Source: a virus. From it: 30,571 bases of DNA. Of the stretch, positions 621 to 30,571 are shown piece after piece. Each line of letters starts with the position of its first letter. Positions within the stretch are counted from its first letter, which is position 1. The stretch spans positions 1-30,571 of the IMG/VR virus record IMGVR_UViG_3300033144_004840; one strand, 5' to 3'. Both the position numbers and the translations under genes were made by a program. A model generated the notes under the pieces. It was not told where the DNA came from and made no database searches. It saw only the letters and a program-made list of their open reading frames with translations.

Positions 621-1586
621 ATGATTTTAAAAGAAAATATTCTGTCAAAGATAACAGAAAAAGATATAATGGAATTTTATTGGGGAGAACAATTAAAAGA
701 TAACAAACCAATTTATAGAAATCCTATGCGACATGACAATAAAGGAAAATGTTATTTTAAATGGCATAGAAATAAATATATGTTTGTTGATAGAGCAAAG
801 GGATTAGAGGCAAATTTTGATTGTTTTCAATATGTTATGTGGTCTCATAGTTGTAATTTTTATGAAGCTTTAAATATTATACATGAAGATTTATTATCAA
901 ATACTAAATTTAATTTAACTAAACCTAAAAAGCAAAGATCAAGTTCTCCAAAATTAAAAAATAAAAGTGTTAATTTTAAAATTAAATTAAGAAATTGGAA
1001 TGAACACGATAAATCTTATTGGAACCAATTTGAAATAAAACTTAATACTGTAAATAAAATAGCAAAACCTGTTAGTTCTTATAAATCAGATTCTAATTCT
1101 TTTGTATTTACAACTAAATATAAATATATAATAGAAGATCCATGTTATGTATATCAATTTGAATCTAGGGTTAAATTATATCAACCTTATTCTGATTTTA
1201 ACAAATGGAGGTCAAATACTACAACAAATAATATATTTGGTTATAAAGAATTACCTCATTTTGATGATGTTTTATTTATTGCTAGTGGAGGTAAAGATAT
1301 GTTGTGTTTATGGGAAATGGGATTTAATGCTATAGCTCCTCAGAGTGAAAGTAATAAATTATCAGAAGCCGTAATAGATGATATTAAATGTAGATTTAAA
1401 AATATATATTTTATATACGATAATGATCCAACAGGTATTGAAATGTCAAATAAATTTGCTAATGAACATAATCTCAATAATATAATTATTCCAAACGTAA
1501 ATGATTGTAAAGATATTGCTGAATTATGTAAAAAAATTGGATTAAATAATACAAAACAAATTATAAATAATAAACTTAAAAAGTAA
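621..1586 (+). CDS. DnaG-like DNA primase with TOPRIM domain
   Basis: A 321-residue protein likely to synthesise RNA primers for phage replication. The N-terminal part (about residues 15-95) has the layout of a DnaG-type substrate-binding domain (NPMR, then KGKCYFKW, then DRAKG and DCFQYV) but lacks an obvious complete zinc-binding cysteine/histidine set. The C-terminal half carries a TOPRIM fold: strand DVLFIASGGKD, then APQSES, then the acidic pair in IYDNDPTG. The usual first glutamate of TOPRIM is absent; SGGKD sits there, similar to the S-x-KD variant I recall in other phage primases. No helicase domain is fused. The ATG at 621 is the first in frame; another ATG at 614 is out of frame. 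The downstream gene starts three bases after the stop, so the two are probably cotranscribed. Confidence 0.75.
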   Translation: MILKENILSKITEKDIMEFYWGEQLKDNKPIYRNPMRHDNKGKCYFKWHRNKYMFVDRAKGLEANFDCFQYVMWSHSCNFYEALNIIHEDLLSNTKFNLTKPKKQRSSSPKLKNKSVNFKIKLRNWNEHDKSYWNQFEIKLNTVNKIAKPVSSYKSDSNSFVFTTKYKYIIEDPCYVYQFESRVKLYQPYSDFNKWRSNTTTNNIFGYKELPHFDDVLFIASGGKDMLCLWEMGFNAIAPQSESNKLSEAVIDDIKCRFKNIYFIYDNDPTGIEMSNKFANEHNLNNIIIPNVNDCKDIAELCKKIGLNNTKQIINNKLKK

Positions 1587-10171: not shown

Positions 10172-10190
10172 AATATATAAATAATACAAA

Positions 10191-13100: not shown

Positions 13101-14045
13101 GGTTATAAAGATCAAAAAATAAGAAGAGTTATATATGATAACTCAGATGGTAGTACAATGAAAGAAGCTCTTAATAAACAAGACGTTCAAAAACAGATTG
13201 ATGCCGATTATAATGTTAAATATCCAAATGGCGGGTTTGAGGCAGATGAATATAAAAAAGAGTGGCTTGAAAAAAAATTAACAGGTATAAGATTAGATTA
13301 TACTAATCCAGGGGGACCTATGTTTGTTGCACAATTTGAATACGGTGACGGAACAATTTCAAAAACTTTTGAAATGAATACTACTACTATAGATGAAAAA
13401 ACTGCTACAGAATATTTTGGAATTTCAGGATTACAGATGAAATATACTGATTATTTAAGTAAAGGTTTAATTAAAAACAATGGTTTATGGGCTGACTTAC
13501 CAACCATTGGGGGAGGAAATCCAATTAGAGTACATCAAGCTCTTACTAATTTTACTGGTAGTGGCGGAGATGGTAATAAAGTTATAAGAGGTAATTTCTA
13601 TGTTATGAGTGATAAAAGTCAAATGTACGAAGATGAAGACGAAGGAAATCCTAAATACGGAATGGATGCTACAGATGTATTCTATCATCAATTTGAAACT
13701 ATGAATGAAGTTTTTACATATGTAAAAAATAAAAGTTCAGAAAAAATGAAACATATAAATAAATTATTAAAACAAAAAGCAGCATTAGAAAATACAAAAT
13801 ATGCTAGTCAATCAATTTCAGAAATACTTGGTGTTCCTGCAGGTAAAGAATATCATCCATATGAAGAATCATGGGGTACTAAATCTAATGCAATAAAAGG
13901 TATAGATGATGCACTTCAATATTTTTATACAGGAATAGATCCAACTAAACCTAATATTGCTACTGGAACTACAGCTACAGCTGGAACTACAACTGGAACT
14001 ACTGCAAATAAGTTGCCTCAAAGTTTTCAGCTACCGGGTTCTTAG
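10191..14045 (+). CDS. Large putative virion or ejected protein, 1284 residues
   Basis: The first large gene of the virion module; I do not recognise a named family. The N-terminal 120 residues are helical and Glu/Lys/Ala-rich (KLASGIMAREGRAEETRNAIADA), a style seen in internal or ejected phage proteins. The middle contains long Lys/Glu/Asn-rich helical stretches, and Gly/Asp-rich loops lie toward the C-terminus. The protein ends in a Thr/Gly/Ala linker encoded by short DNA repeats and then stops at TAG. The -1 frame continues with coding-like sequence into the muralytic gene, so this may be the N-terminal part of one protein of roughly 1780 residues. No signal peptide or catalytic motif is visible. 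A cargo or tail-associated role is inferred from size and neighbours. Confidence 0.75.
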   Translation: MAIIKGMKTADMGSITPYNEDIEKLASGIMAREGRAEETRNAIADARNQMLLKETRDNSEDMALAQKLEQGFASDVDAMLDKADADYSMISKGDLQRLAGDYMGKTEWRALTNAKIQTDIYNDEKRKLEAAGGSATIFGKDPNKVSLYDEEGNINHLTGTFEVQKTLDHSQAAKDLFDTLGHKLKKETGYDEVRDGKDFIKYYNSWIETHKDNRPMVDEIILGGIDGFLTDPEGLQYYRIHYESQRDLGIDHENADKYAREKVVALVRTYGKSEYVYEDTRLDKRNDINTNKGTTSNPRKPGSIEAEPIGETHPTTTATVSYHSFNSPEGQDAIDVLLNNTEGTNFEQIGQGTEVAKISDITNNNTLIEVIGAVHPVNDPNGEGSGGDGVIYKPGTLFKLGQKEGSRNPTVFSINTIQNINSAIEIIDDEITIKNEEIQQNPNNETFKTDLKNLKIKKFKQKLRLANKENYKSLDFETLKGYTSENISDLVGDDLFTTADIRKLLEGDDNILKNANMLSSQVYKSILNSENTNSNWKSGSITTYQTENKDGDINININSVLTKLQEKYKTDLESLYDEDDEGNKTLKSSSSKGEEKLLEAKIFKIAQKIRLAKEFLDKNDGVIENIKTTFNKNFTSNKNLRVVLDQLAINAGLTPDQISYGLHLKLPKYLDDNGKKINTYNGKHELANERAETDSGINWANPLKGTAYSVFESTKEIIEVDFDRLTAARKQRQQKLKERSNKKVTIGDIGNTSWSLVNRLEAKLGKDATKDETLRDIQKLKDAHLIFRNNITTGKYTEEDLKETDWYEKYIVEYNHKLENMHDEYTIASSQRAYILELNQELLKKEFEKAKISNNNSYTTELMNTLLMNDEQLTGMGNVSQHPLGAGLTYYDSESRTYSLKPEATEKIYKNKKKQLKIMYGTDPTLKAYFKSVDELSQQIDRTSEYYVFEVGGDGESKSKYDHIKRSIVAGYKDQKIRRVIYDNSDGSTMKEALNKQDVQKQIDADYNVKYPNGGFEADEYKKEWLEKKLTGIRLDYTNPGGPMFVAQFEYGDGTISKTFEMNTTTIDEKTATEYFGISGLQMKYTDYLSKGLIKNNGLWADLPTIGGGNPIRVHQALTNFTGSGGDGNKVIRGNFYVMSDKSQMYEDEDEGNPKYGMDATDVFYHQFETMNEVFTYVKNKSSEKMKHINKLLKQKAALENTKYASQSISEILGVPAGKEYHPYEESWGTKSNAIKGIDDALQYFYTGIDPTKPNIATGTTATAGTTTGTTANKLPQSFQLPGS
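13963..14002 (+). repeat. Three copies of CTGGAACTAC encoding a Thr/Gly/Ala linker
   Basis: The 10-base unit CTGGAACTAC occurs exactly at 13963-13972, 13981-13990 and 13993-14002, with similar bases between. It encodes a Thr-Gly-Thr-Thr type low-complexity stretch near the end of the 1284-residue protein. Such stretches usually act as flexible linkers between domains, which is odd at a terminus and supports a fusion with the muralytic region downstream. Confidence 0.8.
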
Positions 14046-14278
14046 ATAAGATAGTTACTACGACTCCCGGCGTAGTTCAAAAAACACAAAAAGAAGACGG
14101 TGAATATAAATATTCAATTGAGAAAAATGTATTTGATGATTTAAGTAAAATTGATCAAGCACAATTAGGATTTGCATCTAAACCCAGTTTAGCTAAAAAA
14201 CATAAATGGTTTAGTACAAGCACAGGAGATATATATGCTGTTAATCCAGATGTTTTAAAGGAAATACAAGAGATTCCA
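14012..14278 (+). other. Coding-like sequence in the -1 frame joining two virion ORFs
   Basis: The frame used by the downstream muralytic gene is open from 14012, just after a TAA at 14009, but has no ATG, GTG or TTG until 14279. Its translation from 14042 (LDKIVTTTPGVVQKTQKEDG onwards, including HKWFSTSTGDIYAVNPDVL) has normal protein composition and no stop. The upstream gene overlaps this frame only from 14012 to 14045, so a -1 shift there would fuse the two genes. I see no good X-XXY-YYZ slippery heptamer; the nearest candidate is the TTTT run at 14024-14027. A real or artefactual indel is as likely as programmed frameshifting. Confidence 0.65.
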
Positions 14279-15544
14279 ATGGTTACTAATAAAGGTACAC
14301 GTGCTAAAATGAGATTTACTCCTGCAATAGGAAATCTTGTTCAGGACATGAGTGATATATTACAAGGGTTGTTGAGCGCAAAAGAAAATTATGAAAAACC
14401 AATAACAAATATCTCACAATTATCTACTGTAAAACCTTATTTAAGTAACTTTACTCAAAATGAAGACTATAATTACATAGATCCAAAAGATTTATCTATG
14501 TTTGATGGTTTAACAGTTCATGATAAAGCAGTAATTACAAGTGGTTTAAGATCAATACAAGATAATACAAGTGCATACAGAACTAATTTAACTTCTATGA
14601 TAGATAGTCCACATATGACAGGTAATTCAGTTGACATACGTACTAGAGATGGACAAGATGGTAAAGCAGGTAGAGCATTATGGGAATTCTTTAAAACTCC
14701 TTCAGGGGAAGCATTTTTAAGAAAAAATAATGCAAGTGCATATTATCATGATACAGGTACAGGTTATCATATTGATATAACAAAAGCTAGAAATGATAGA
14801 CCTGCAGGTAAAGTGTATGAGAAAAATAAAAAAGGAGAAATGATAATTTATTCTCCTGGACAAGCACAAGTACTCGAAAATATAAATAATCAAATAACTA
14901 AAAAAGAAAGAAAAAGTATACAAGGAAGATTAACTAAAGTTAGTGAATATAATGATTTTATAGAAAATGCTGCTACTAAATATGGTATGCGTGCCGATCA
15001 CCTTAAAATTATTATGGGGGTAGAATCAGGTGGAAAACCTGAAGCAAGCAGTGGAGTTGCATTCGGATTAATGCAAGTTGTTAAATCAACATGGGACGGA
15101 ATTCAGGGGAGTTATCCTGAATTATCAAAGTATGACTTTGAAACATATCGGTATAATCCTGAAATTAATATACTTTTTGGTGCAGCTGCTCTTAAGAATA
15201 AAGCTGAAGACATGGGTGTCAAACCTAACGATCCTAATTTTCTTATCCTTGCTGGTACTGCTTATAATGCTGGACAAGGAACTGTCTTAAAAGCTATGAC
15301 AAATGCTCAAGCAGGTGGTAGTAAAAACCCAGGTGAAGATTTTATTTTAGAAGAATACATGAAACCCGCAATTAGACATTATAAACTTTTTACTTACAAT
15401 CTATCAGCAGAAAATAAAGCAAAATTCAAAAAAGGTATTACATTAGATGAAAAAATAATTAATGATGCTATAGATAAAAAATATAAAGAAATTTCAAGAT
15501 ATAAACCAAAACTAAATCAGTACTTTGAAATATTAAATCAATAA
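14279..15544 (+). CDS. Two-domain muralytic protein: M15-like peptidase plus lytic transglycosylase
   Basis: Likely cuts host peptidoglycan, probably as a virion-associated enzyme during entry since it lies among large virion-type genes with no holin. Residues about 85-165 match M15/VanY-type zinc peptidases: VITSGLRS, then HMTGNSVDI (the H-x-x-G-x-x-x-D pattern) and a later GYHIDI supplying the last ligand. Residues about 230-350 match soluble lytic transglycosylases: IIMGVESGG with the catalytic glutamate, FGLMQVV, and AGTAYNAGQG. A Lys-rich helical linker separates the two, and a Lys-rich tail follows. The ATG at 14279 is the first start in this frame, but open coding-like sequence precedes it, so the true N-terminus may be in the 1284-residue gene. 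Confidence 0.85.
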   Translation: MVTNKGTRAKMRFTPAIGNLVQDMSDILQGLLSAKENYEKPITNISQLSTVKPYLSNFTQNEDYNYIDPKDLSMFDGLTVHDKAVITSGLRSIQDNTSAYRTNLTSMIDSPHMTGNSVDIRTRDGQDGKAGRALWEFFKTPSGEAFLRKNNASAYYHDTGTGYHIDITKARNDRPAGKVYEKNKKGEMIIYSPGQAQVLENINNQITKKERKSIQGRLTKVSEYNDFIENAATKYGMRADHLKIIMGVESGGKPEASSGVAFGLMQVVKSTWDGIQGSYPELSKYDFETYRYNPEINILFGAAALKNKAEDMGVKPNDPNFLILAGTAYNAGQGTVLKAMTNAQAGGSKNPGEDFILEEYMKPAIRHYKLFTYNLSAENKAKFKKGITLDEKIINDAIDKKYKEISRYKPKLNQYFEILNQ

Positions 15545-15608
15545 CATATACCGTTACCATATAATAAAATAAATATAATCACCATATACTATAAATATAT
15601 AATATAAT

Positions 15609-18600
15609 ATGAATCCAGAAGAAATGGAGGCTTATTTGAAAAGTCTAGATAATGAAGCAACATCTGAAAAATTACAAGAATCAATGGCAGAAGATATTAA
15701 ATATGCCAATGAGTGGGATTACTATCAGAAACAACAAAGATATATAAGTCCTTATTTAAATCCTACTGCAGATATTGATATTGATTATGATATGATGACA
15801 GAAGCAGAAAGATTGGGTGCTGATTATACTGTTGGTTCTGAATATAATGCTGATAATCTTTGGGAGAAGCAAGGGACAAAGGAACAATTAGGAAATGCAA
15901 CAGCAAGATTTTTCTTTAATACTTTAACTGATACAGCTGCTGGATTTGCATCAATGGTAGATTTACCAGGATATGTTGATCCAAATAAAGGAATGTTTAA
16001 AGGTGTTGCAGATTGGGCAGCGGAACAAAAAGAAAAAACAAATGAGTGGGCGCCTATTTATCAGAAAAAAGATGCTGGAATGTGGGGTCCTGGTATGTCC
16101 TCATGGTGGATTGAAAATGCAGGAAGTCTTGCTTCTAGTGCAGTTTCATTTGGATTACAAGGTATGGGTGCAGGTGCTTTTGTAAGTAGAGGTGCACAAG
16201 CACTTAAATGGTTGAACACTTTAAAAAAGGCAGAAAAAATAAAACGACACGGTAAAGTAATTGGTACAGGTGAAAAGATGGCTAGATCAGGTAGATCTGG
16301 TACAGCAATAGGAGAAGGATTAAAAGCTGGAGATATGGCACAAAATGTCGCTGTATCAACAGCGTTAAACCAATCTGCTGCTATAATGAGTGCAACAGAA
16401 TCATATAATAGTGTATATAATGAAGCTATTGAAATGGGTTATAGTGATGCATATGCCGAACAAATTGCAGCTCAAACAGCATCAAATATTGTTAATGCAA
16501 GTAGAGCCAATATTGCATTAAATTTAACAATGTCTAGTAGATTCTTAAATGGTTCTAAAAATGTAAAAGGATTTAAACGTGAATCATTTTTACCCTCTTT
16601 TAAAAGAAAAGAAATGGGGGCGGGGTTAAAAGAAGGTGCTCAAGAACTTGTTGAAGAAAATATAGAAATGATTGCCCAAGAACAAGCTGAAGCAGAGGCT
16701 CATAGAGCAATGGGAACAGGTGAAATGGCTAGATCTAAAGGTCTTATATTTGGTGATGAATTTTATTTAACAGGTAATATATATGGTGATGCTAGTTATA
16801 AAGATATTGTAGAAACTTCTGTATTAGGTTTCTTAGGTGGACCAGCTCATGTTGGTATGGCAACAATAAAAGGATCTGTGGGTACAACTGGTTCACGATT
16901 AGATAAGGTAACTTTTGGTGCAGCAAGTAAAATATTTGGTCATAAGGTTGCAAAAACACATAAAGAAAATGTGTATTACCCTGATGGTTCACTTAAGTTT
17001 AGAGCTGGTGAAACAATGGTTGAAATGGAAGATGTAATGGTTGAAAATGAGGAAGGTGAGTTAGTTAATGAATATGTAGAATCAGAAGTTGAAAAAGATA
17101 AAGATGGTAAGTTTGTAAGAGAAAAAAGACAAACAGAAAAATTAGATGAAAAAGGAAATGTAATAGTACAATATGAAGACGGTCTGGTATCTGCAAATAA
17201 AAAAGTTGATGATGAATATGATAGAATAAATAAACCAATTGAAGCATGGCAGAAGAGTGTTGAAGACAGTGCAGGTATTATTGCAAGTGCAAAATATCAA
17301 GCTGCATTAGAAGAAAATATAGCAGATATTAATGATTTTATTGAAACTAGAGACCATAAGAAAAAAGATAAAATCATTGATAACATGGCTAGAATTGATA
17401 TGGCTAATTCAGGCACAATTGATTTTGATACACAGGAATCTAAAGATAAGTTAGAAAAAAATAAAAAAGAACTCGCCAAAGAGTTTGATAAAATGAATGA
17501 AAGACAGTTGAGAAAAAGAGCTGATAAACATAAAGAATTTTCTTTAGCTCGTGTTGCTGTTGAATCATTTAAAAGTAACACCAAAGATCACTTAATAAAT
17601 ACATTTAAGGAGATAGGGTCATTAAGTCCAGAAGAGGCTAAATCTAAAGGATATACGGATGATTATAAGGATCAGGTTGAAGGGGCAATAGTAAAAATAG
17701 ATGAATACTATGATCGTTGGATGGAATATAATACTAAACTAGATAATCCTATTGCACATGCTGCATTTAACAATAGATTAAGTTATGATTTGTTAGGTAA
17801 AGATATAGAAGATTTAAATAAAGAGGCAGAAGAAAAGCATAAATTAGCTGTTAAAAGCCATGCAGAAAAACAGGATATTGATATAAATGAAATAGATGAA
17901 GATGGTGTATCTAATAAATTTAAATACGATCAAGCATTTAAAATACAACAGGAGAAAAATAAGAAATTAATTTCTGATAAGAAATTAACAGAATTAAAAG
18001 AAAGACAGGATGAACTACAAGATGAACTTGATGAATTTGATAGAATACCTGAAAAAAAGATAAAAAAAGATTTAGCTGAAAGTTTACAAAAAAGAGAAGA
18101 CTTATTAAATCAAATTAGTAGTTCTTTAAAGGAAATAGAGAAAAGAGAAAATGAAATATCTAAACCTTTTGATGAAAGAATTGAAAAACTAGGTTTTGAT
18201 AAATTTAGTACTAAAGAACAAAGTGATATATATGATAAAAAATTAGCTGCTGTTAAAAAATCACTTGAACTTGATGAAGAGTTTGATGATTTAGTTAGTG
18301 GAGAGAAATTAGCTAAGTTAATTAGAAAAGAACAAGAAAAGAATAGAGAGAAAAGAAGAAAGTTCTATTTTAATTTACATATGGAGCAATTAATGGAACT
18401 TCAAGATAGAGATGGATTCGTTTATTGGGATAATAGTGAAGAAGGAAAAGCCAATTTATTTAATAGTAAAAGAGGTAGAATTGATTATAAAGATGGCAAA
18501 TATATGTTTACACCTGAAAATGAAGAACCATTTTTAGTTAATGAAGCCAATAAAGAACTTTATGAAAATCAAATTAAACCTGGTAAAGAAAGTGAATGGG

Positions 18601-21600
18601 AAGAACATAAAAATAACATAAACAAAAAAAATAAAAAACAATTAGAAGAATCAAAGAAGGAAGTTGGTACACTACTAACTAAATTGAATGAATTAAATGA
18701 AAAGAAAAAATCTTTAACTTCTTCTGTTCATAGTAAACGAATATTTAATACAACTACAGTAAGAAGAACAGCTGATCGAATTGATGAATTAGATAATAAT
18801 GATACTCTTAGAAAAGGATTAATTAAAGAATTAAATAGATTAAATAAAATATTAAATCGTCCTGTTTTTGATGATACATTAACAGGTAAAGAAATAGACA
18901 ATCAAGAATTACTTATTAATAGAGCTATTGATGAAGAGGTAGCCTCATTAGATACATCTATTCGTTACATTCAAGAAGAAGTTGGTAAAGATGAAAAAGG
19001 AGAACCTCAATTTACAGGTACATTAAGTAAAGCTCAACTTAAGGTATCTAAATTAGAAGATCAAATAAATAAACTTCCAATTCCTAATAGATTAAAAATG
19101 TATACTGTTACGGATAACGAAGATGGTTCTTTTACTGTATTTCAAAATATAAATGCAATAAAAGAAGAATCTATTTCTTTAACGGATACTAAACTTAATG
19201 AAAAATATTATAAAGATGATAAAGGCAGGCATTCAATAATAGGAAAAGATACTGAACACAATGAAAATACAGAAGTATTTGAAATGCTTTCTCCTGCTGA
19301 TTTAAGATTTGAAAAATTAAAAGAATTTAGGAAAAAACTTGGTAAGCCAATTAATGTTGCTAAAAATGAAACACTAATGGAAATGGCAGAAAAAATGCCT
19401 AAGACAGAAAGTGAATTCTTAAAAATAAAAGGTATTGGTAAAGTTAAAAACGAGAAATACGGAAAGCAATTTCTTGAATTTATTGCAACACTTCCTACTG
19501 ATGATAGTGTAGATTTTGATGAACAATTTAAATCAATTGGTATTGTTTCTACTAAAAAAGAAAAAGGTGAAACTACAATAAAAATAAAACCATCTGATTC
19601 ACAAGCAATTGAAATAGCTGATTTAGATACTATTTCAAATTTACGTGGTCGTGAAAAAGATAGTGCTCTTGTTGCTGAAGCCCAATTAGAATTTATTAAA
19701 GCTTTTTGGGATAAACAAATAACATTAGAAAGATTAAAAGTAGAAAAAGCTGAAATTTACACTAATGAAAATGAAAATAGAAATAATTTAATAGATAAAC
19801 AAATAGAAATAAGTAATAATATAGCTCGTTTTAATGAATTGCGAGACTTTATGAATCAAGTAATTCAGTCAGATAATTTAGAACAGTCACTTGTAGATCA
19901 TTCAGATCCTATTGCAGCTCAATTTAATTTAATTGTTGCACAATTTGTTGATGATAAAGAACAATTACTTTTTGATGAAGACGCTAAAGAACTTCACAAT
20001 AAGTTAACTGAAATGTGGGATAAGTTACTTGGTTTTGAAAAACAAGTAGAAGAACAGGATAATAAAATTGAAAAGATACGCGAGGGTATTGAAAAGCAGC
20101 GCCAAAAAATAACTGAAAAAACAAGTAAAAAAGAATCTGTTAGAGGTCATCTAAGTCATATTACTAAATTAAATAAACAATTAGTAGAAGCTAAAAGAAT
20201 AAGAAAAAACATTCTTTCTAGTAGAAACTACTACGAAAAAGAAATTGAAAGATATGAAGTATATGTAGATGTTCTTGAAAATAGAAAAAAAGAGATTTAT
20301 TTTGTTAGAGAGGAATTAAATAGATTAGCTACACCTATACAACAGTTAAGAGATGATTTAGATAAACTAAATACATCAATAGAAAAGTTTGATGTAAATC
20401 TTAAAGATATTAATAGAAACATTAGACTAAATAGAAAAATATATAAAAAATTAAAAGGTATATTAGACTCCAGGAAAATCTACGGAGGTAAATATTTTGA
20501 CAGTGAAGAAGCTATTGTTAGAATATTAGATAATGAAAACCCTGATAGTTTATCTTCTTTAATGGGTGATATATTAGATGAACTCGGATTACCTGAAGAA
20601 TTTCATACAAGATTTGAACAAGAGTTACTTAATTCAGTATATAATACTGATTTTGAATATCAAGGCGATCCTGATATTGATCAATTAAAAGCATTACTTA
20701 AAGACCCCTTAAAAGGTGTGGGTATTACAAGGATAAATTCTACAGATTTTGTTGGTCCTAACGGAGAAACAATTACAATATCTCCTGAAACTGCAGAGAA
20801 ATTATCAAGGATGTCTAATGCATTAGAAAAAGCAACTATTGAAAATAGAAAGGATGCTGATAGTGTTGAATTTGTAAAATTAGAAGATGGTACTGAAATG
20901 ACCGTTAGAGAGATTCGAGAAAGTCTTAATCAATGGGAAAGTGAACTATCTCGTTACACAGAAGAGAGAAAGCTAGTACATAAAATAAGAAAAGAGGGTA
21001 GAGAAATTAAAAAACAAATAGAAAATAAAATACAAGACGAGGAAAATATACACGGTAGTACTATTTATATTCTATCAAGGATTGATAGAAAGGTAACTGA
21101 TACCGAACAAAGTGCTTTTAATAAAGTTCAACAATTATTAAAAGACATGAATGACAAAGAAATAGGACAAAGAAAAGCATTTGGTGATTTAAAAAAATCA
21201 GTAGAGGTTATTGATTTAGAATTACAAAATAATAAAAGAAAGTATAATAAACTTTTAGAATTTGAAGATATATTTGTTGAAAGCTGGGAAGAATTTGCTG
21301 GTACATTTTCTGATGAAGATGTTAAAGTAGGTGATATCAATAAAATGATTGAAATGATCAATGGTACTATTGATCCAGAAACAGGTGAAAATAAAATAAC
21401 AAGAGACCTTAAAAATGAAATAGAAATACTTGAAAAAGATTCTAATTTAAGTAAACTAGAATTAAGTAAGTTAGATGCTTTAATTAAATTACAAGAAGAA
21501 TTAAAAGCTGCTATTGAAAATAAAGATCTTGATCTTTCACCGAGAACATTAGTTCTTCGTAAGAACAAAATAAAAAAAGCTATTAGTGATATTGGTTCTT

Positions 21601-24600
21601 TACAAAGAGAGAGTATAGAAAAAGAAAGAGAACTAGAATTAAAAAACAATGCCGGTAGTATAGTTGATACAGTTGATACATATAAAGAAAAATTAGAAGA
21701 TGATTCTGAAGAATTATTTAGACTCATAACATATAAAGATGGCAGTACTAAATTACTTACATTAGTTGAGGAAACTGATCTTTTTGGTAATGAGGTAGAT
21801 AAAGAATTGGCTGAAGCTAAAATTTTAAGTTTAAAAAAGTCAAAACCATTTAAAACAGAAACTTCTGTTGAGGCATTTAAAACAAAAGTTGAAGATGAAA
21901 TAAATAAAAAATATGATGCTAAAATAGATGAATCTTTAAGATTAGAAAATTTTGAAGAAAGTATTTTAAATGCACATGGTACTCAATTAAAATTAAGTCA
22001 GGCAGTAAAAGATAAAAATGCTTTGGAAGCTGATTTAGAAAAAGCTAATGATAAAAAACAAGATCCTAAATATATTGAAGAAAAATCAGATAAAGAGAAT
22101 ATATTAAATCAAATTGCTCAAATTGATAATGATGTATATATCTCAGAAGAAGAAAGAAAAACAAATGAGAAACTTATTAATGATCCAGATAGGATCAAAA
22201 GAAACAATGTATTACAAGCAGAATTAGATAATGTACAAGGTCGATTAAGAGTAATACATGGTGGTGATAAAAGAACAGGTCTTAAGGTAGCAACTAAAGT
22301 TGCAATACATAAGAGAAGAAAGCCTGGTGAATTACAATCACTTTTAGATGAAGAAGAAGAAATACTTAACTTACAGAAAAAAGAACAAGATGAAGTACAA
22401 GTATTTGAAGATGAAATAATCTATTATGACGAAAAAATAGAAAGAAAAGCATTAGAAAGAAAAGAATTAGAATTAATTCTAGATGAATTTTCTAATGAAT
22501 TTTTAGAAGTTGATAAGGAAGTTGAATCTCTTGAGAATCAAATTGCAGATATAGATTTAAAAATAGAAGAATATCATGAACTTATATCAAATGGAGCACA
22601 AACCGGATTAATGGCTTCTGTTGCAGCATTTGGCGCAGAGGAAGATGTAATGAGTGAAGTTCAATTAGGGTTATTAGAAGGACAACTCAATTGGACTAAT
22701 TTAGTAAGGTCACAAGAAGGAGATCGTCTTAAATCATTAATTGAAAGAAAAAATGATGCTGAAGATGAATTAGAAATACGTCAAGCTTTATTCGCAGGTA
22801 ATGATGAAATAATAAAAAGTTCAAAAAAAGCTTTAAGTAATAAGAAATTTAAATTAACAGCAGAGGATACAAAAATAAATAATGCTTTAAAAGAAGAAGA
22901 TAAAAATACCAATACATTAGAAGATGATGACATTCTAATGAAAGGTGTTGATGATAATTTGATAAATAGTAAATCAACAGTATTAAGTACTATGCCTACT
23001 CATCTTAAATGGGATGGTAAAGAAGTAATATTTGATACAAAAACAAAACTACCTAACTTAGTTGATGTTGATTATCAAATACGTCATATGAAGTTTATGA
23101 ATTTAAATGTTGATAATATGGAAGATTTCAACATAGAATTTGTACAACCAACTAAAGTAATTAATGAAGATACTGGTGAAAGAGAAGAAAGAAATCCAGA
23201 TGATCCTTTCAATAAAGTTGAAATAACACAAGTAGATTCAGAAACTAAAAATAAAACAGGAAAAGTTTTAACTACTGTTGAAGCAGATAAAGAATTTGGA
23301 GGTGGTTTATACGCTATTATTACTAATAAAAAAGGTCAGCGTATTTATATGAATAATGAAGGTGATATGCGTCCATTAGACGATACTACTACTCATGATG
23401 ATTTAGAAAAAGATGGTTATGAATTAGTATTTACTAATATCCCTAATATAGTAAAAACGTCAAAACCTGGAGAACCAGATAGGTATACCCAAACTATGGG
23501 TGACAATATGCTTCTTAATGAACTTGGAGAAGTATTAGGACAATCTCCAGCTCAGGAATGGGGTGAAGTTAGTGGTAATAACATAATAACAATAAGGGGT
23601 AATACTTATAATTTAACTAATGAGGATGATTTATCAAGAGTAAAAGAAATACTAAAAAATAACATCTATATTAAGATGTCTAAATTTAGAGAAAATGTTG
23701 AAAATGAATTAAATAAAGATAAGAAAGTATATGTAAAAATTAAAGATGTTTCTGATGGTTTTCAATTATCACGTAGTAAAGATAAAGAATTAAGAATTGT
23801 TGATGATTTAATACTTGATAAAAATAATAGATTAATTCGTACAACAGATGCAAAAGGTAGAAATACAACAGTAGAAAAGAGAGTTAAAAATAAAGATGGT
23901 GATATAGTTGATAAACAGTTCAATGTAACATCAGGTATCTTATATGTTTTAAAACCCAATAACAATCTTGTTGAAGTAACTGCTGGTAAATTAGAACAAG
24001 ATGAAGTTAATACAACATTAAAATTGATTACTGAATTATTAGATGAACAAGGTGCATTTAATAAACAAGGTACTTATGAAACAAATAATGGTGAATCAAA
24101 AAATGTTAATTTAATTTCAGTTGGTAAAGAATCTAAAGATATTGGATTACTTAATAAAGTACTTAATTGGACTGGTCCCACAGATAATAAGAAATTTAGT
24201 ATTTGGATTTCAGGTGGAAGAATACAATTTGTAAACAAAGATGGTAAAAAAAGACATTTCCCTGTAAATTCAATAAGAGAGTATATTAATAATGGTTTCA
24301 AAAAAGATAAAATAACTGATAAATTTGGAAAACAATATTTTGATGAATTTTTACTTTTCTTAGATGAAAAAAGAAAACATGTTCATTTTCAATTAATTGC
24401 TGATGAAAATATTGATAAAGAATATTTACATCCTTATTTAGATAAAGAAACTAATGAAATTAAACTTATAAAATATAATAACTATAGAGAATATCTTGCA
24501 ACAATACTTAAATCAAGAGTAATAACTGAAGATGAATTAGAATCTTTAGGTTTAAAAATTAAAGATAAAGATGGTAATGTTGTTTATAATGATGGAACTG

Positions 24601-27600
24601 TTGGACGTTATATGTCTTTTTCTGAAACAATAATTGATGAAAAGAAAAAACCCCTACCTCTTAATTATTTAAAGAAAGATGGTTTATTTCTTGATGAAGG
24701 GGAGTATTTAAAATACGGAGATGAAGTAGGTAGACTAGAATCTAATGGTATTGATTTAGTTTGGACTGGTGAAGAATCAAAAAATGAAATTATACTAACT
24801 GCTGATAACATAGATGATTTTGATTTTACTATTGAAGAAACTAGTGGTGAAGAAGGTACAGATGAAGATACAGGTGATGAAGATTTTACACCTATAGAAA
24901 AAACTGAATTACCTGTTATTGATAAAGATGATACATTAGAATTTGTTAATGGTTATATAAATGTAGATACTGCAGGTGATGTTACATTAGGTAACTTTGG
25001 AACTAGAATAAAAGTTAAAAAAATAGAAGGGAATGAAGGTTTATTAGTACATCAAACATTCTCTTATCTTAATGAAACCTATCATGATTTTTATTCAATA
25101 GATGAAAATGGAGAAGTTGAGTTAATTACCTCAAAAGAAGTTATAAAAACTATTAAAGAAATATTTACTTTAGGTAATGAAGAATTAAAATTAGGTAGTG
25201 AATTAAAAGGTGAAGGAGAGAGAGAACAAAAAAGAAAAAAACTTTTAGGTAGAGAAATTAAAAGTGCTAGTGATTTTATAGAATACTATGATAAATTTTT
25301 AGAAGATGATCCATCTAGATTTGATAGTAATAAAAATGATATAATTCAAACATTAAATTATAATAATACATTTATTAATGAATATCTACCTTATTTAATT
25401 ACAGGTAAAGGAGGAGAAGGATTACTTATAAGTACAAGAAAAAGTAATGATGGTAAAACTGATTTAAATATTTTTAGAAAAAAAGGAGTAAAAAATGCAG
25501 GTGATGTAGCTATAGAATTAAAAACAGAAAAGCCAGATAGTGTTAAAAAACTACTTGCTGATAAAAAATTCATGCCAACAGAAGATAATGTATATTCAAG
25601 ATTGATTAAACAAATAATGGGAGATGAAGATACTTCTATTAATTATATACCTCACATTACTCCTGATGCTAAATTTAATTCTAATACAGAAGCTATATCT
25701 TTATCTTTAGGATCTATTGTACGTAGTAATAAAACACCTAAACACTTAGGTGCAACTATAGCACATGAATTAATACACAAATTAGATAAGAAAAAATTTA
25801 AAAGTGAACATTGGGATAAACTTGTTAACTTAAGAGATGCAGTAGGTAAGTATTTAATTAAAAATAAAAATAAGAAAAGTATTCAAGACTTATGGAAAGA
25901 AACATATAATGATCCTGAAACAGGAGAGAAGATTAATAAACTTGCTTATTGGTTATTTGGTAAAAGAATAAATCAAGATGAATTTCAAGGAATATTAGAA
26001 AATAGTGTTGATTTTAAAAATCTAACAGATTCTGAGACATTAGCATTAGAAGATTTAGAATCTACTGATGGAGCAATGAAAGAGTTCTTTGCTAATTTAA
26101 TGAATCAAAAAGAATTTCAAGAACTATTAAATGATATTCAAATAAGTGAAATTAAAGAAGATCTTGAATACACTGTTAAGCGTGGTAAAAAGAATATGTT
26201 TCAGGCGTTTCTTGATGTCTTAAATGACATATTAAAAAGTTTTGGTGTCACAGTAGGGATTAAGAAAAATGGTGTCTTAGAAGAGGTTTTAATAATAGGT
26301 GCTGCACATTATAAAAAAGCAGGAGCATTTAAAGATATTGATGACAAGGTAGTCTATGAAAAGAGTTTAAAATCAGATGATGATAAAGATAAAACTTTTG
26401 AAGAGCAAATCAATGATTTAAATAAAGAAATTAAAGAAAGTATTAAACTTGCTGACTTTGTAAAAGTTAGTGATTTAGAAGCTAAAATTAAAGAACTAGA
26501 AGCTAAGATAGCAGAAAGAGATAAAAAGGATGATGTTAAAACTAATCTTACACCTCAAGAGATAAGTTATGTTTTTAGTACTTTAGATACTATTACAAAA
26601 ACATCTGCTGATGAATTAGTAAAGCTTGCCAATCAAGTATTAAATAAAGAAATAACTAAAGCAGAAGCAAAAGCAGAAACATCACCTCTATTAATAGAAT
26701 ATTTAGATGCACTTTTATCTGTTAGAGATCAAGATACTGGGGATACTAATGATAAATTAGGACACTCTATTGATAGAGCTGAATTAGATTCAGAAATTAT
26801 TAAAAATGAAAGTGATAATATAAAAATTGGAAGTTATAGTAAAGAAGCTCAAGATAGTATTAAAATTAGTGATGATGGAAAAATTATAGCTATTGCCGAT
26901 GGTATGGGAGGGGCAGCTGCTAATTTTAATGGTATGGTAAATGCACGTAGTATTGCTACTACTGTAACTAAAATTCTAGCAAAAGGTGGAAGTTTAGATG
27001 ATATTATATTGCAAGATTTAATTGATAATATGTCTGATAGTGATTTAAAATATTTTAAAATACTTAAATATATTGCAGAATCTAAAAAAAATAAAGTAAA
27101 TCTAAAAGAAGTAACCGATTATATTGACAGTTTAAAACTAAAGTGGAATGTTGCTAATATTTTAAAAACTATTGCACTTGATGTTTATAGTGGTAAAATA
27201 AATGAGGGTGCATCAACCCCATCAGTTTCTACAACTTATATAAATGTAGAAAATACTGCAGAAAATACTTATGTTATTACTAAAGTTGGAGATACTCAAT
27301 TTACTATTGTAGATAAAGATGGAAATATTGTAAAAACACATGGAATGTCTGCCTCTGCTACTACTGGTGGTTTTGGTATGCGTTATAGTGAAAAATCTGG
27401 AGAATTTGAATTCACCTCTAGTCCATTACATACTGCAACTATAAAACTTTTACCTGGTCAAAAATTAATAGTATCAACAGATTTTATAGAAAAAGAAAGT
27501 CAACTTAAATCTTTTAATGAACAATATAATAATGCCGATTTTAGTTTAAAAGAGTTTACTTCTGCTAAAGGTAATAAACAAGATGATGCAACTTTTGCTG

Positions 27601-29870
27601 TTATTGATTATGTTACTAAACCCGAAGTTAAACCTGAAGAAACTAAAGATGATGATGATGGCCTTACAGATAGATCTAGTTTAATATTTGGAATTACGGC
27701 AAATGATGAATTAAATTTCTGGGGTAAAAATAAAGGAGCAGCAGATGACTATTTAGACACTCTTGCAGAAAATGAATTAAAAGATATTTTGAATAAAACA
27801 AAAAATCTAGAAGATTTAAAAAAAGAGTTTGATACTTGGCTAAATAATAATGATGATGATTGGAGTCTTAATTCACCTGAAGAAAATAAAATAGATTCTG
27901 TTGAATTAACAAACAAAGAATTAAAACATATTAAAAAACTTTTAAAAGATAAAAAATACGATTCTCTTTCAAGGAAACTTTTAACAACAGAAGAAAAGCA
28001 AAAACTTCAAAAAGATTTAAGAGAAGATTTTTCAGAGTATAACGAAACTTTAAATGATAAAAACAAAACACCGGAAGAAAAAATAAGAAATACAGATACT
28101 ATGCTTGCCATATTATTAATGGATGATAATGTAGATGACAAGTATAAAATTTTTGCAGATAAGGTAAAACAGTTAGAGGAAATGACTGTTATTTCAGAAC
28201 AACAAAAATCTAAAACAGTGAAAGAACTTTCTTCATTTTATGATTTTAAAGATGTTAAATTAAATCAAGATGAATTAGATTCAATAATGGGTGCATTAAC
28301 AAATGATGTATTTGAATTATTTAGAACTAACTCAGAAGCTCTTTATGAAAAGGGAGTTAATAAACAAGTATTATATGATCAAATTAGAAAAAAACAAGCA
28401 AGGGAAGATGGATTAGGTATTTTAAAGAATATTATTGAAAGAGCTGGATGGACACCAGATGGAATTGATAATACAAAAGCAAAAAAGTTTATAGATAATA
28501 ATACTGATCAAGGAAAACTTATTTTAAAGGGAGATATTAAATTTGTATTTGATATTATACAAAAAATAAAAAGATTAGAAAAAGCATCTAATAAAACAGA
28601 AGAACAAGAACAACAATTAATTAATTTAAATACCCGATTAAGTAATATAGTAAAAGTATATGATAATTTTATTTCAAGAAAAGGTCCTGGTAATAATGAA
28701 AGATGGAATGAATTAGTTCGTATGCATACAACTTATATGAATAGTTTAGGATTTTCAATTGATACTGAAACATTACTTGATAACGAAAGATCTGAAAATG
28801 AAACAGAAGCTTCAAAAGATAGTGCATTTATTAAGGATTCTACTTTAATTGATCAGAAGTCTACAATGCCTTCTGCTATTAAATTATTAATTTCAAGTTT
28901 AGTTAATGAAAAACTAAATAAAGATTGGAAAGATGTCAAAGGTGAAGAAGTATTTGAAAATGTTAGAGGATATCTAGGATTACCTATACCAAATGAATTC
29001 AATGATATATATAATTTATTAGTTAAAAAATTAGCAAATAAACCTGCTAGACTTGATGTTATTATTAATGAATTAAATAATATATTTAATAAAGAAAAAA
29101 ATGAATCTGGTCCAGGGCAAGCATTAAAAAGTTTAGTAAATGCTGATACATCACCATTACATGTTTTAGGTAAAAAAAATATAAGCGATATAACATTAAA
29201 TGATGTTAGGGTAATAACCCAATTCATTCAAACATTTAGTAAATTTGCACCTAAATTTTTATTGGCAACAATTGATAAGAAAGGACATTTATTCTTTTAT
29301 GATGCAAATAAAACAAGAGCTGTAGAAAAAATAGTAAAAACATGGGAGGAAAACTTTAATAAAATAAAAGAAGATGTAGAAAAAGATGGTGTTAGAACTA
29401 GATTGCTTCCTGATTTTTTAAAAACTTTTAAAGCAGAAACTTCCAATATAATTAAAAGTAAAAATAAAACAGATAGAGTAAGAAATTTAAAAAAACAATT
29501 ATCTAAAATAGGTATTGACATTAAAGACATGCAATCTTATATGGATAATTTTATAAAAGGACTTGAAGGTACTTCATTTGGTGATAGATTAACAGCAAAA
29601 GATAGTTTATTAGAAAATATTGATAAAGCATTAAACCCTAAAGATAAAGACGGTAATGCTAAAGAAATAAATCATGATTATAATCCTTTTAAAGATGATA
29701 ATATTAGAGGTACAATTATGGAGTTTGCTGAAAAACTTGTTGAATCTTCTAATCAATCAGTTGATAATCAGTTTATGAGTGTAGATAATAAAAGTATTTA
29801 CGCTGCAACATTAAATCAGTTCTTATCATTATCTGCTAATAAAATGAATTATGGTGCTAAAAAACTTTAA
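15609..29870 (+). CDS. Giant multidomain 'polyvalent' phage protein, 4753 residues before TAA
   Basis: A single uninterrupted frame of over 14 kb, starting at an ATG in an A/T-rich leader without a Shine-Dalgarno site. N-terminal region (to about 450): acidic start, then Gly/Ala-rich hydrophobic segments at about 158-200 and 400-428 that could insert into or cross membranes. Long Lys/Glu coiled coils fill much of 500-2350, interrupted by an HRDC domain (about 1232-1292). A beta-rich stretch spans about 2480-3100. Then come a zincin metallopeptidase (HELIH at 3386), a possible UVR-like motif (about 3606-3640), a PP2C phosphatase domain (about 3735-4005), and a helical C-terminal part. The mixture resembles large proteins that phages inject with their DNA to act on host targets. 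No RNA polymerase DxDGD-type motif is visible. The frame continues beyond the stop. Confidence 0.85.
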   Translation: MNPEEMEAYLKSLDNEATSEKLQESMAEDIKYANEWDYYQKQQRYISPYLNPTADIDIDYDMMTEAERLGADYTVGSEYNADNLWEKQGTKEQLGNATARFFFNTLTDTAAGFASMVDLPGYVDPNKGMFKGVADWAAEQKEKTNEWAPIYQKKDAGMWGPGMSSWWIENAGSLASSAVSFGLQGMGAGAFVSRGAQALKWLNTLKKAEKIKRHGKVIGTGEKMARSGRSGTAIGEGLKAGDMAQNVAVSTALNQSAAIMSATESYNSVYNEAIEMGYSDAYAEQIAAQTASNIVNASRANIALNLTMSSRFLNGSKNVKGFKRESFLPSFKRKEMGAGLKEGAQELVEENIEMIAQEQAEAEAHRAMGTGEMARSKGLIFGDEFYLTGNIYGDASYKDIVETSVLGFLGGPAHVGMATIKGSVGTTGSRLDKVTFGAASKIFGHKVAKTHKENVYYPDGSLKFRAGETMVEMEDVMVENEEGELVNEYVESEVEKDKDGKFVREKRQTEKLDEKGNVIVQYEDGLVSANKKVDDEYDRINKPIEAWQKSVEDSAGIIASAKYQAALEENIADINDFIETRDHKKKDKIIDNMARIDMANSGTIDFDTQESKDKLEKNKKELAKEFDKMNERQLRKRADKHKEFSLARVAVESFKSNTKDHLINTFKEIGSLSPEEAKSKGYTDDYKDQVEGAIVKIDEYYDRWMEYNTKLDNPIAHAAFNNRLSYDLLGKDIEDLNKEAEEKHKLAVKSHAEKQDIDINEIDEDGVSNKFKYDQAFKIQQEKNKKLISDKKLTELKERQDELQDELDEFDRIPEKKIKKDLAESLQKREDLLNQISSSLKEIEKRENEISKPFDERIEKLGFDKFSTKEQSDIYDKKLAAVKKSLELDEEFDDLVSGEKLAKLIRKEQEKNREKRRKFYFNLHMEQLMELQDRDGFVYWDNSEEGKANLFNSKRGRIDYKDGKYMFTPENEEPFLVNEANKELYENQIKPGKESEWEEHKNNINKKNKKQLEESKKEVGTLLTKLNELNEKKKSLTSSVHSKRIFNTTTVRRTADRIDELDNNDTLRKGLIKELNRLNKILNRPVFDDTLTGKEIDNQELLINRAIDEEVASLDTSIRYIQEEVGKDEKGEPQFTGTLSKAQLKVSKLEDQINKLPIPNRLKMYTVTDNEDGSFTVFQNINAIKEESISLTDTKLNEKYYKDDKGRHSIIGKDTEHNENTEVFEMLSPADLRFEKLKEFRKKLGKPINVAKNETLMEMAEKMPKTESEFLKIKGIGKVKNEKYGKQFLEFIATLPTDDSVDFDEQFKSIGIVSTKKEKGETTIKIKPSDSQAIEIADLDTISNLRGREKDSALVAEAQLEFIKAFWDKQITLERLKVEKAEIYTNENENRNNLIDKQIEISNNIARFNELRDFMNQVIQSDNLEQSLVDHSDPIAAQFNLIVAQFVDDKEQLLFDEDAKELHNKLTEMWDKLLGFEKQVEEQDNKIEKIREGIEKQRQKITEKTSKKESVRGHLSHITKLNKQLVEAKRIRKNILSSRNYYEKEIERYEVYVDVLENRKKEIYFVREELNRLATPIQQLRDDLDKLNTSIEKFDVNLKDINRNIRLNRKIYKKLKGILDSRKIYGGKYFDSEEAIVRILDNENPDSLSSLMGDILDELGLPEEFHTRFEQELLNSVYNTDFEYQGDPDIDQLKALLKDPLKGVGITRINSTDFVGPNGETITISPETAEKLSRMSNALEKATIENRKDADSVEFVKLEDGTEMTVREIRESLNQWESELSRYTEERKLVHKIRKEGREIKKQIENKIQDEENIHGSTIYILSRIDRKVTDTEQSAFNKVQQLLKDMNDKEIGQRKAFGDLKKSVEVIDLELQNNKRKYNKLLEFEDIFVESWEEFAGTFSDEDVKVGDINKMIEMINGTIDPETGENKITRDLKNEIEILEKDSNLSKLELSKLDALIKLQEELKAAIENKDLDLSPRTLVLRKNKIKKAISDIGSLQRESIEKERELELKNNAGSIVDTVDTYKEKLEDDSEELFRLITYKDGSTKLLTLVEETDLFGNEVDKELAEAKILSLKKSKPFKTETSVEAFKTKVEDEINKKYDAKIDESLRLENFEESILNAHGTQLKLSQAVKDKNALEADLEKANDKKQDPKYIEEKSDKENILNQIAQIDNDVYISEEERKTNEKLINDPDRIKRNNVLQAELDNVQGRLRVIHGGDKRTGLKVATKVAIHKRRKPGELQSLLDEEEEILNLQKKEQDEVQVFEDEIIYYDEKIERKALERKELELILDEFSNEFLEVDKEVESLENQIADIDLKIEEYHELISNGAQTGLMASVAAFGAEEDVMSEVQLGLLEGQLNWTNLVRSQEGDRLKSLIERKNDAEDELEIRQALFAGNDEIIKSSKKALSNKKFKLTAEDTKINNALKEEDKNTNTLEDDDILMKGVDDNLINSKSTVLSTMPTHLKWDGKEVIFDTKTKLPNLVDVDYQIRHMKFMNLNVDNMEDFNIEFVQPTKVINEDTGEREERNPDDPFNKVEITQVDSETKNKTGKVLTTVEADKEFGGGLYAIITNKKGQRIYMNNEGDMRPLDDTTTHDDLEKDGYELVFTNIPNIVKTSKPGEPDRYTQTMGDNMLLNELGEVLGQSPAQEWGEVSGNNIITIRGNTYNLTNEDDLSRVKEILKNNIYIKMSKFRENVENELNKDKKVYVKIKDVSDGFQLSRSKDKELRIVDDLILDKNNRLIRTTDAKGRNTTVEKRVKNKDGDIVDKQFNVTSGILYVLKPNNNLVEVTAGKLEQDEVNTTLKLITELLDEQGAFNKQGTYETNNGESKNVNLISVGKESKDIGLLNKVLNWTGPTDNKKFSIWISGGRIQFVNKDGKKRHFPVNSIREYINNGFKKDKITDKFGKQYFDEFLLFLDEKRKHVHFQLIADENIDKEYLHPYLDKETNEIKLIKYNNYREYLATILKSRVITEDELESLGLKIKDKDGNVVYNDGTVGRYMSFSETIIDEKKKPLPLNYLKKDGLFLDEGEYLKYGDEVGRLESNGIDLVWTGEESKNEIILTADNIDDFDFTIEETSGEEGTDEDTGDEDFTPIEKTELPVIDKDDTLEFVNGYINVDTAGDVTLGNFGTRIKVKKIEGNEGLLVHQTFSYLNETYHDFYSIDENGEVELITSKEVIKTIKEIFTLGNEELKLGSELKGEGEREQKRKKLLGREIKSASDFIEYYDKFLEDDPSRFDSNKNDIIQTLNYNNTFINEYLPYLITGKGGEGLLISTRKSNDGKTDLNIFRKKGVKNAGDVAIELKTEKPDSVKKLLADKKFMPTEDNVYSRLIKQIMGDEDTSINYIPHITPDAKFNSNTEAISLSLGSIVRSNKTPKHLGATIAHELIHKLDKKKFKSEHWDKLVNLRDAVGKYLIKNKNKKSIQDLWKETYNDPETGEKINKLAYWLFGKRINQDEFQGILENSVDFKNLTDSETLALEDLESTDGAMKEFFANLMNQKEFQELLNDIQISEIKEDLEYTVKRGKKNMFQAFLDVLNDILKSFGVTVGIKKNGVLEEVLIIGAAHYKKAGAFKDIDDKVVYEKSLKSDDDKDKTFEEQINDLNKEIKESIKLADFVKVSDLEAKIKELEAKIAERDKKDDVKTNLTPQEISYVFSTLDTITKTSADELVKLANQVLNKEITKAEAKAETSPLLIEYLDALLSVRDQDTGDTNDKLGHSIDRAELDSEIIKNESDNIKIGSYSKEAQDSIKISDDGKIIAIADGMGGAAANFNGMVNARSIATTVTKILAKGGSLDDIILQDLIDNMSDSDLKYFKILKYIAESKKNKVNLKEVTDYIDSLKLKWNVANILKTIALDVYSGKINEGASTPSVSTTYINVENTAENTYVITKVGDTQFTIVDKDGNIVKTHGMSASATTGGFGMRYSEKSGEFEFTSSPLHTATIKLLPGQKLIVSTDFIEKESQLKSFNEQYNNADFSLKEFTSAKGNKQDDATFAVIDYVTKPEVKPEETKDDDDGLTDRSSLIFGITANDELNFWGKNKGAADDYLDTLAENELKDILNKTKNLEDLKKEFDTWLNNNDDDWSLNSPEENKIDSVELTNKELKHIKKLLKDKKYDSLSRKLLTTEEKQKLQKDLREDFSEYNETLNDKNKTPEEKIRNTDTMLAILLMDDNVDDKYKIFADKVKQLEEMTVISEQQKSKTVKELSSFYDFKDVKLNQDELDSIMGALTNDVFELFRTNSEALYEKGVNKQVLYDQIRKKQAREDGLGILKNIIERAGWTPDGIDNTKAKKFIDNNTDQGKLILKGDIKFVFDIIQKIKRLEKASNKTEEQEQQLINLNTRLSNIVKVYDNFISRKGPGNNERWNELVRMHTTYMNSLGFSIDTETLLDNERSENETEASKDSAFIKDSTLIDQKSTMPSAIKLLISSLVNEKLNKDWKDVKGEEVFENVRGYLGLPIPNEFNDIYNLLVKKLANKPARLDVIINELNNIFNKEKNESGPGQALKSLVNADTSPLHVLGKKNISDITLNDVRVITQFIQTFSKFAPKFLLATIDKKGHLFFYDANKTRAVEKIVKTWEENFNKIKEDVEKDGVRTRLLPDFLKTFKAETSNIIKSKNKTDRVRNLKKQLSKIGIDIKDMQSYMDNFIKGLEGTSFGDRLTAKDSLLENIDKALNPKDKDGNAKEINHDYNPFKDDNIRGTIMEFAEKLVESSNQSVDNQFMSVDNKSIYAATLNQFLSLSANKMNYGAKKL
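16080..16212 (+). other. Hydrophobic Gly/Ala-rich segment in the giant protein
   Basis: Encodes residues about 158-201, including SSWWIENAGSLASS, VSFGLQGMGAGAF and ALKW. It is small-residue-rich and largely uncharged, and a basic stretch follows (KKAEKIKRHGK). A second weaker hydrophobic segment, ETSVLGFLGGPAHVG, lies near 16812-16890. These might form an amphipathic or membrane-inserting region used for delivery through the cell envelope; that is inference from composition only. Confidence 0.4.
19302..19484 (+). other. HRDC domain inside the giant protein
   Basis: Residues 1232-1292. The order is LRFEKLKEFRKKLG, a helix around ETLMEMAEKMPKT, ESEFLKIKGIGKVKNEKYG and then FLEFI. This is the standard HRDC layout of RecQ and UvrD-type helicases (helix, 'L-EMA---P-T-EEFL-I-GIG--K---YG--FL'). 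HRDC binds DNA or proteins and guides helicases; no helicase motor lies nearby here, so it probably acts as a DNA- or partner-binding module among coiled coils. Confidence 0.85.
25680..26210 (+). other. Zincin-type metallopeptidase domain inside the giant protein
   Basis: Residues about 3358-3534. The zinc motif is IAHELIHKLD (H3386, E3387, H3390), preceded by a strand ISLSLGSIV. A probable third ligand lies 102 residues on: E3492 in MKEFFANLMNQKEFQELL. The spacing and the 'EF-A-----EF--LL' pattern fit gluzincin-like peptidases found in large phage proteins. It may mature the giant protein or cut host proteins. Confidence 0.78.
26424..26526 (+). other. Possible UVR-like helical hairpin motif
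   Basis: Residues about 3606-3640: EIKESIKLADFVKVSDL followed by an amphipathic helix with KIKELEAKI. The DF-K-SDL--KI--LE pattern resembles the UVR motif of UvrB, UvrC and ClpC-associated proteins, which mediates protein contacts. The surroundings are generally coiled-coil-like, so this could be coincidence. Confidence 0.35.
26811..27623 (+). other. PP2C-family serine/threonine phosphatase domain inside the giant protein
   Basis: Residues about 3735-4005. All PP2C hallmark elements occur in order: KEAQDS (D3749), IIAIADGMGGAAA (D3764, G3765), a TPSVSTTYI strand, VITKVGDTQ (the GDSR-like motif, D3895), LPGQKLIVSTDFIE (D3958) and KQDDATFAVI (D3992/D3993). The metal-binding aspartates needed for two Mn or Mg ions appear intact, so activity is likely. 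A phosphatase carried in a virion-type protein could reverse host phosphorylation-based control or defence. Confidence 0.88.
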
Positions 29871-30571
29871 AATCCTCTTCGTGATGAAGTTCCTCATATT
29901 TTCAATGTTTTTACTGGTAATTCAATTGCATTAAAACGACTAAGTGGTTTAACTGGTAATAATGAAATTACTACTAAAGCCGTAATAGAAGTTGGTATGT
30001 TTAATGGTTTGACTATTAAAGGTGAGCCTGGTGGAGAACTTACTAAGTCATTAGATTCTCCTGATAAATGGGCAATGATGATTAGTTCTACAATGAAAGG
30101 ACATTATACTTTCTTCCGTGCTGCGGATAGAGGTACTGAAAATTTATTTACTTTTAGAGATATTGATAGTGGAAAACCTATTAAATTATATGAAAATAGA
30201 GATGATGCTCTTGATGCTTTTTATGGTTATTTGTTAGATGAAGTTAATGCAATGGTTCAACTTAAAAATGGTCTAGGTGCAGATGTTAAATTCTATGAAA
30301 CAAATGGTAAAGATTTTAGATTTTTTAAAGATATATCTTTAGGTACAAATGACTCTATTAAAGAAAACATAATAAGTTTAATTGAAGATGGTAATAGTTT
30401 TGAAGAAATAAAAAAAGACTTAGATAGAAATAAAGAAAATATTATCCAAGATATTAAAAAACATTTCATAACTAAAGCTGCTGTAACAAAAGGGAAAATT
30501 GATAAAGATGGTTTATTAAAAGAATTTCCTGAAAATATTCTAAAAGAAGATTATTGGGTAAAAGATAAAAA
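29871..30571 (+). CDS. In-frame continuation of the giant gene after TAA, running off the window
   Basis: Directly after the TAA at 29868-29870 the same frame stays open to the end of the window, 233 codons. It begins NPLRDEVPHIFNVFTGNS and includes MISSTMKGHYTFFRAADRG, FTFRDIDSGKP and a Lys/Glu-rich end. No ATG occurs until 29998, and the preceding 42 codons look fully coding, so a new gene starting there would waste a coding-like leader. Composition matches the giant gene. The likeliest reading is one gene interrupted by a single stop, through mutation, sequence error or readthrough. A separate downstream gene is the alternative. The end lies outside the window. Confidence 0.6.

Follow-up and report, generated by a model that had tools for sequence, protein, structure and literature searches.

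The front part of a probable virion RNA polymerase giant with HRDC and probable PP2C domains in a deeply branching crAss-like phage

The giant open reading frame (ORF) of the virus record IMGVR_UViG_3300033144_004840 probably encodes the first ~4750 residues of a virion RNA polymerase (RNAP) giant of the crassvirus type, in a deeply branching crAss-like phage. The whole 30.6-kb record, referred to here as the window, is a fragment of a crAss-like phage genome, and its features are listed in Table 1. A sequence-only reading of the same DNA had described a single frame of 4753 codons, which was confirmed from ATG to TAA, and had proposed that its product could be a multi-weapon effector delivered to act on the host. 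The latter interpretation was supported in part, for delivery; the giant appears to be, first of all, the front of a virion RNAP, for which early transcription is the established role. That reading had missed that both ends of the giant are homologous to virion-RNAP proteins of crassviruses and that the frame continues past the TAA.

Table 1. Features of the window and of the giant ORF, with the basis of each assignment.
Feature	Coordinates	Strand	Basis
crAss-like DnaG-type primase, lineage marker	621..1586	+	phrog_12622 E 2.8e-35; 30-35% identity to Crassvirales primases; tree
1284-aa protein in crassvirus cargo-protein position	10191..14045	+	position compared with crassviruses
Cell-wall hydrolase, MepK/DUF5715-like front and SLT transglycosylase	14279..15544	+	Pfam SLT E 2.6e-16; MepK match weak
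Giant ORF, 4753 aa, probable front of crassvirus-type virion RNAP giant	15609..29870	+	ATG-to-TAA frame; homology at both ends
N1 module, aa 88-345, common to crassvirus cargo proteins and phi14:2 g067	15870..16643	+	hhalign P 4.2e-6
HRDC domain, RecQ type, aa 1234-1292	19308..19484	+	Pfam E 7.1e-13; slice 9.7e-14; 1wud E 7.7e-9
Probable zincin-like metallopeptidase	25716..26288	+	motif only: HELIH at aa 3386, candidate Glu at aa 3492
Probable PP2C phosphatase domain, aa 3746-3996	26844..27596	+	Pfam PP2C_2 on slice, six-frame scan, Asp motifs
N-terminal module of crassvirus virion RNAP, aa 4203-4749 (~gp66 residues 60-563)	28215..29855	+	14-vRNAP profile
In-frame TAA within RNAP module	29868..29870	+	homology on both sides
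Open frame continuing after TAA, RNAP N-terminal module (~gp66 residues 601-834)	29871..30569	+	phmmer, profile

The RNAP assignment comes from the C-terminal end of the giant together with the frame that follows its TAA. A profile of 14 crassvirus virion RNAPs scores 50.7 bits at aa 4203-4749 and 41.9 bits in the post-TAA frame, and the profile positions aligned are consecutive (56-550 for the giant C-terminus and 581-779 for the post-TAA frame); none of 400 shuffles exceeded 3 bits, and no other part of the giant exceeded 2.4 bits. The post-TAA frame is open for 233 codons up to the window end, with its first ATG at 29997. Its residues 43-223 match aa 2307-2487 of the giant of another crass-like record, G015, with E-values of 2.5e-7 and 4e-7 in two comparisons, and its residues 54-181 match the RNAP ORF of G012 (phmmer E 1.5e-9). 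In G015, the matching stretch sits just ahead of the part homologous to phi14:2 gp66, a core that matches PDB 6VR4 at E 1e-28, and a weak but in-register alignment connects the final 250-550 residues of the window giant with the part of G015 immediately preceding. When the five closest profile members were held out, the C-terminal signal decreased to 13.9 bits and the downstream signal to noise, indicating that the homology to a gp66-type polypeptide is found as a chain through one sub-group (G015/G012). When viral sequences were scanned with an alignment of the N-terminal RNAP piece, no matches were obtained. The window does not include the catalytic DxDxD motif and ends ~530 residues short of the expected position (gp66 residue 1365), and by comparison with gp66 the active site should lie ~1.6 kb past the window end.

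The opposite end of the giant gives independent support for its identity as a crassvirus RNAP giant, as judged by profile comparison. The N1 module, common to eight crass-like proteins, aligns with aa 88-345 of the giant (hhalign probability 87%), while shuffles and other segments of the giant all remained below 1% probability; the same module aligns with phi14:2 g067 at P 2.6e-10. Since the two ends of the giant match N1/g067 and gp66, both correspond to the side-by-side phi14:2 genes g067 and gp66. By homology to the mass spectrometry-detected proteins of phi14:2 and crAss001, the giant would be present in the virion. Virion delivery, previously argued from size and from the adjoining muralytic gene, is supported by better evidence than size, namely the N1 homology to g067, a virion protein identified by MS/MS, and the homology of the C-terminal end to the region ahead of the gp66-type RNAP core.

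The in-frame TAA is the point on which an alternative explanation could be built. A -1 frameshift in the run of A residues ahead of the TAA was ruled out, the downstream homologous frame being the same frame, and a simple homopolymer indel is therefore not the cause. No second contig over the TAA was found. The TAA is possibly a substitution error, a minority variant, a site of readthrough, or a stop followed by a re-start at the ATG at 29997; in-frame stops and shifting gene borders have been described in crassvirus RNAP genes (PMC7886860). Alternatively, the giant might be a polyvalent effector (Iyer et al. 2017) that enters together with the DNA, disarms the host, and has itself no polymerase function, the polymerase being a separate gene after the TAA that starts, for example, at this ATG. 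The stop at 29868 and the ATG behind it are in agreement with such an arrangement, as are the separate genes for the g067 and gp66 homologues in phi14:2 and the joint occurrence of HRDC, zincin motif, and PP2C, which resembles polyvalent proteins; several domains are observed in one ORF, and delivery is suggested by homology. However, the TAA interrupts the conserved N-terminal module of the RNAP at ~gp66 residue 563-601 and not at the gp66 start, with homology both before and after it, and the N1 and RNAP modules are within one ORF in the related phages G015 and G031, as in the window giant. We consider the separate-effector explanation unlikely on these grounds. It is highly improbable that the ORF is a decaying or misassembled RNAP giant, in which the TAA within the conserved module would be an inactivating mutation or sequence error and HRDC and PP2C (one motif of which reads TDF instead of the usual SDG) recent non-functional acquisitions, because the 14-kb frame is otherwise open without a second stop, HRDC is well over its cut-off, and the PP2C metal-site Asp positions are intact, all of which points to selection.

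The source of the window, as judged from its genes, is a deeply branching crAss-like phage. Its primase, a member of phrog_12622 with ~30-35% identity to Crassvirales primases, is near-identical in two IMG/VR contigs, L013 (100%) and L014 (97%), the former of which extends upstream with PolA, DnaB, and more replication genes. In the primase tree, the window groups with L013 and L014 on a long, separate branch within the crass-like sequences, the exact place of which is unsure because of the branch lengths. A crass-type primase and a replication block, by which membership in Crassvirales was assessed, are both present on this deep, separate branch. No crass-type capsid, portal, terminase, or IHF genes were recognised on the window fragment or on the contigs L013 and L093. 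The replication/nucleotide block upstream of the giant comprises the primase, a B12-dependent ribonucleotide reductase, an ATP-dependent DNA ligase, a 5'-3' exonuclease, and a dATP/dGTP diphosphohydrolase-like protein, and, judged from sequence alone, a putative dUTPase. The reductase (1859-3739) shows 55% identity to the enzyme of Microcystis phage Mel-JY01 and ~50% identity to Oceanospirillum and Vibrio phage proteins, some of which are annotated as recombinase, suggesting exchange between unrelated phages. Two adjacent proteins of the window (7554-8342 and 8335-8982) have a common C-terminal part (E 1e-13 against the L013 copy), and the second of these tandem paralogues gives a weak BRCT match.

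The block is followed by the 1284-aa protein, the cell-wall hydrolase, and the giant, in this order. The 1284-aa protein has no detectable relatives in searches of viral contigs, annotated phages, and PHROG, and the homology of this protein and of the giant N-terminus to the crassvirus C1/C2 cargo families was not significant in profile comparisons. The hydrolase is a probable ejection helper, for which no close relatives were found among viral contigs or annotated phages. An SLT transglycosylase occurs in just one other of 29 crass-like records, G011 (51563-51850, L157), where it lies ~6 kb before a giant ORF; this suggests that the proximity of a muralytic gene to the giant may be a recurring feature.

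Between the N1 and RNAP modules of the giant lie ~3850 residues with charged, coiled-coil-like stretches. In the best explanation, this middle is a lineage-variable segment holding HRDC, a probable zincin, and a probable PP2C. The HRDC domain proposed earlier is beyond doubt: Pfam PF00570 gives 48.8 bits on the whole protein and up to 51.5 bits, with recovery on the slice as well, against a curated cut-off of 23.8, and the nearest solved structure is the HRDC of E. coli RecQ (1wud, E 7.7e-9). The complete PP2C domain claimed from the sequence is retained as probable. Pfam PP2C_2 reaches 25.7 bits on a 500-aa slice, just over the curated cut-off of 24, and 25.5 bits in a six-frame scan, but 21.1 bits on the whole protein (aa 3747-3961), below the cut-off. 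The Asp motifs of the PP2C metal site, assigned by eye, are present in PP2C order (EAQD3749S, AD3764GMGG, VGD3895TQ, STD3958F, and QD3992DAT), the fourth being the altered one. An AlphaFold2 model of the region, run without relatives, has a pLDDT of 44 and is not interpretable, and the fold search with it, which matched nothing, is accordingly meaningless. No PP2C relatives on plasmids were found.

The putative metallopeptidase is recognised by its motif, IAHELIHK (aa 3386), followed by the Glu of EFFANL (aa 3492) as a candidate third ligand, but was not recovered by the profile searches, as no match was found in Pfam, NCBIfam, or PDB sequences. In shuffles of the giant, a bare HExxH occurs in 5.8% and the aliphatic context seen here in 0.2%. 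Structure prediction of the region without relatives gave a pLDDT of 37, which is not interpretable, and homology between this zincin and the conserved crassvirus zincins was not detected. The hydrophobic N-terminal segments reported previously were only weakly reproduced; Gly and hydrophobic residues are enriched at the N-terminus relative to the remainder of the protein, but a clear transmembrane helix is not seen there, and no 19-residue stretch has transmembrane-like hydropathy (maximum 1.25). Close relatives of the giant were absent from viral contigs and annotated phages, except for RecQ-type HRDC matches; a weak match to phrog_20886 (E 0.016) was set aside.

Judging from its homology to g067/gp66 of phi14:2 and to cargo proteins of crAss001, the giant would be carried inside the capsid and would leave through the tail in a largely unfolded state, together with the DNA or ahead of it, and the upstream transglycosylase/peptidase would open the cell wall for ejection. 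The polymerase, with its N-terminal domain starting at ~aa 4200 and its active site beyond the window, would then transcribe early genes, as shown for phi14:2. The zincin could either process the giant itself or cut host proteins; self-processing by a peptidase domain has been proposed for polyvalent and N4-type proteins (PMC5512222). The HRDC domain probably binds nucleic acid near the polymerase, and the PP2C domain would remove phosphates from host or phage proteins as infection starts; host targeting by either of the two is plausible. A more specific proposal is that an injected RNAP brings its own Ser/Thr phosphatase to erase host phosphorylation in the first minutes, with the RecQ-type HRDC tethering the giant to the incoming DNA. 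We regard this proposal as tentative and rather doubtful. If it holds, the phosphorylation erased could be, for example, that of kinase-based defence or stress signalling, and a virion-delivered phage PP2C would offer a direct handle on defence by phosphorylation.

Crassvirales, which rank among the most abundant groups of phages, have as a known hallmark giant multidomain RNAPs packed in the virion, with published layout and virion location (PMC7886860, PMC10172136, PMC10136315). No function has been assigned to the greater part of these polypeptides. Crassvirus giants are found beside the replication block in cr50_1 (4775 aa), Fpv3 (4289 aa), and phi14:2 (g065-g067), and giants in related records reach 6374 aa. 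Compared directly, the window giant matched none of a first set of named crassvirus giants, in agreement with reports that these proteins are extremely divergent (PMC7886860). In phi14:2, the g067 N-terminal module and the gp66 N-terminal part are recognisable in the same order as at the two ends of the giant, and both g067 and gp66 (PDB 6VR4) are annotated from MS/MS as virion proteins. The two phages differ in that phi14:2 has two genes where the window has one ORF up to the TAA, and in the ~3850 residues that the window giant holds between the modules, including HRDC, the zincin motif, and PP2C. The single-ORF giants of G015 (4125 aa), G031 (4637 aa), cr50_1, and Fpv3 are comparable in size and have the RNAP motif; those of G015, G031, and cr50_1 carry an HExxH N-terminal of the RNAP core, and those of G015 and G031 also the N1 module. 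In contrast to the window giant, they lack HRDC and PP2C, and their conserved zincin, situated directly before the RNAP module, has no detectable similarity to that of the window. A further ORF of G015 (9797-17221, L099) encodes a 2475-aa protein having many internal repeat segments in common with a G008 protein, perhaps a repetitive surface or fibre protein. The virion RNAP of phage N4 and polyvalent proteins are similar in being giant ejected polypeptides with RNAP and HExxH domains and varying accessory domains (PMC5512222, PMC12633501), whereas the N4 RNAP is of the single-subunit, T7-like type, unrelated to the crassvirus double-barrel type. Neither HRDC, PP2C, nor phosphatase turned up in a text search of the paper on polyvalent proteins (PMC5512222).

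The unusual domain combination noted earlier could be upheld for HRDC and PP2C. Both were found in none of 51 out of 52 crass-like records, the window record being the exception, and in none of 9 further phage genomes, giving 60 others, many of which are fragments, so that the absence is not proof. Other crassviruses carry different enzymes. The cr50_1 giant has an SF1 helicase instead of HRDC/PP2C, and the crass-like 6374-aa single ORF of G022 (IMGVR_UViG_3300009526_000016, 20980-40101; L128 980-19999) has the RNAP motif GSDFDVDSL, two HExxH motifs, an SF1 helicase, and a PD-(D/E)XK nuclease; PDDEXK domains in crassvirus transcription proteins have already been published (PMC7886860). The window case suggests that the segment from the N-terminal module to the core, and the flanks of the core, hold different enzymes in different crassviruses, such as helicase, nuclease, or HRDC and PP2C, which makes a host-takeover role of injected polymerases a testable question. 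Considering these different enzymes, variable accessory domains look like a general habit of crassvirus giants, of which HRDC together with PP2C is a new instance.
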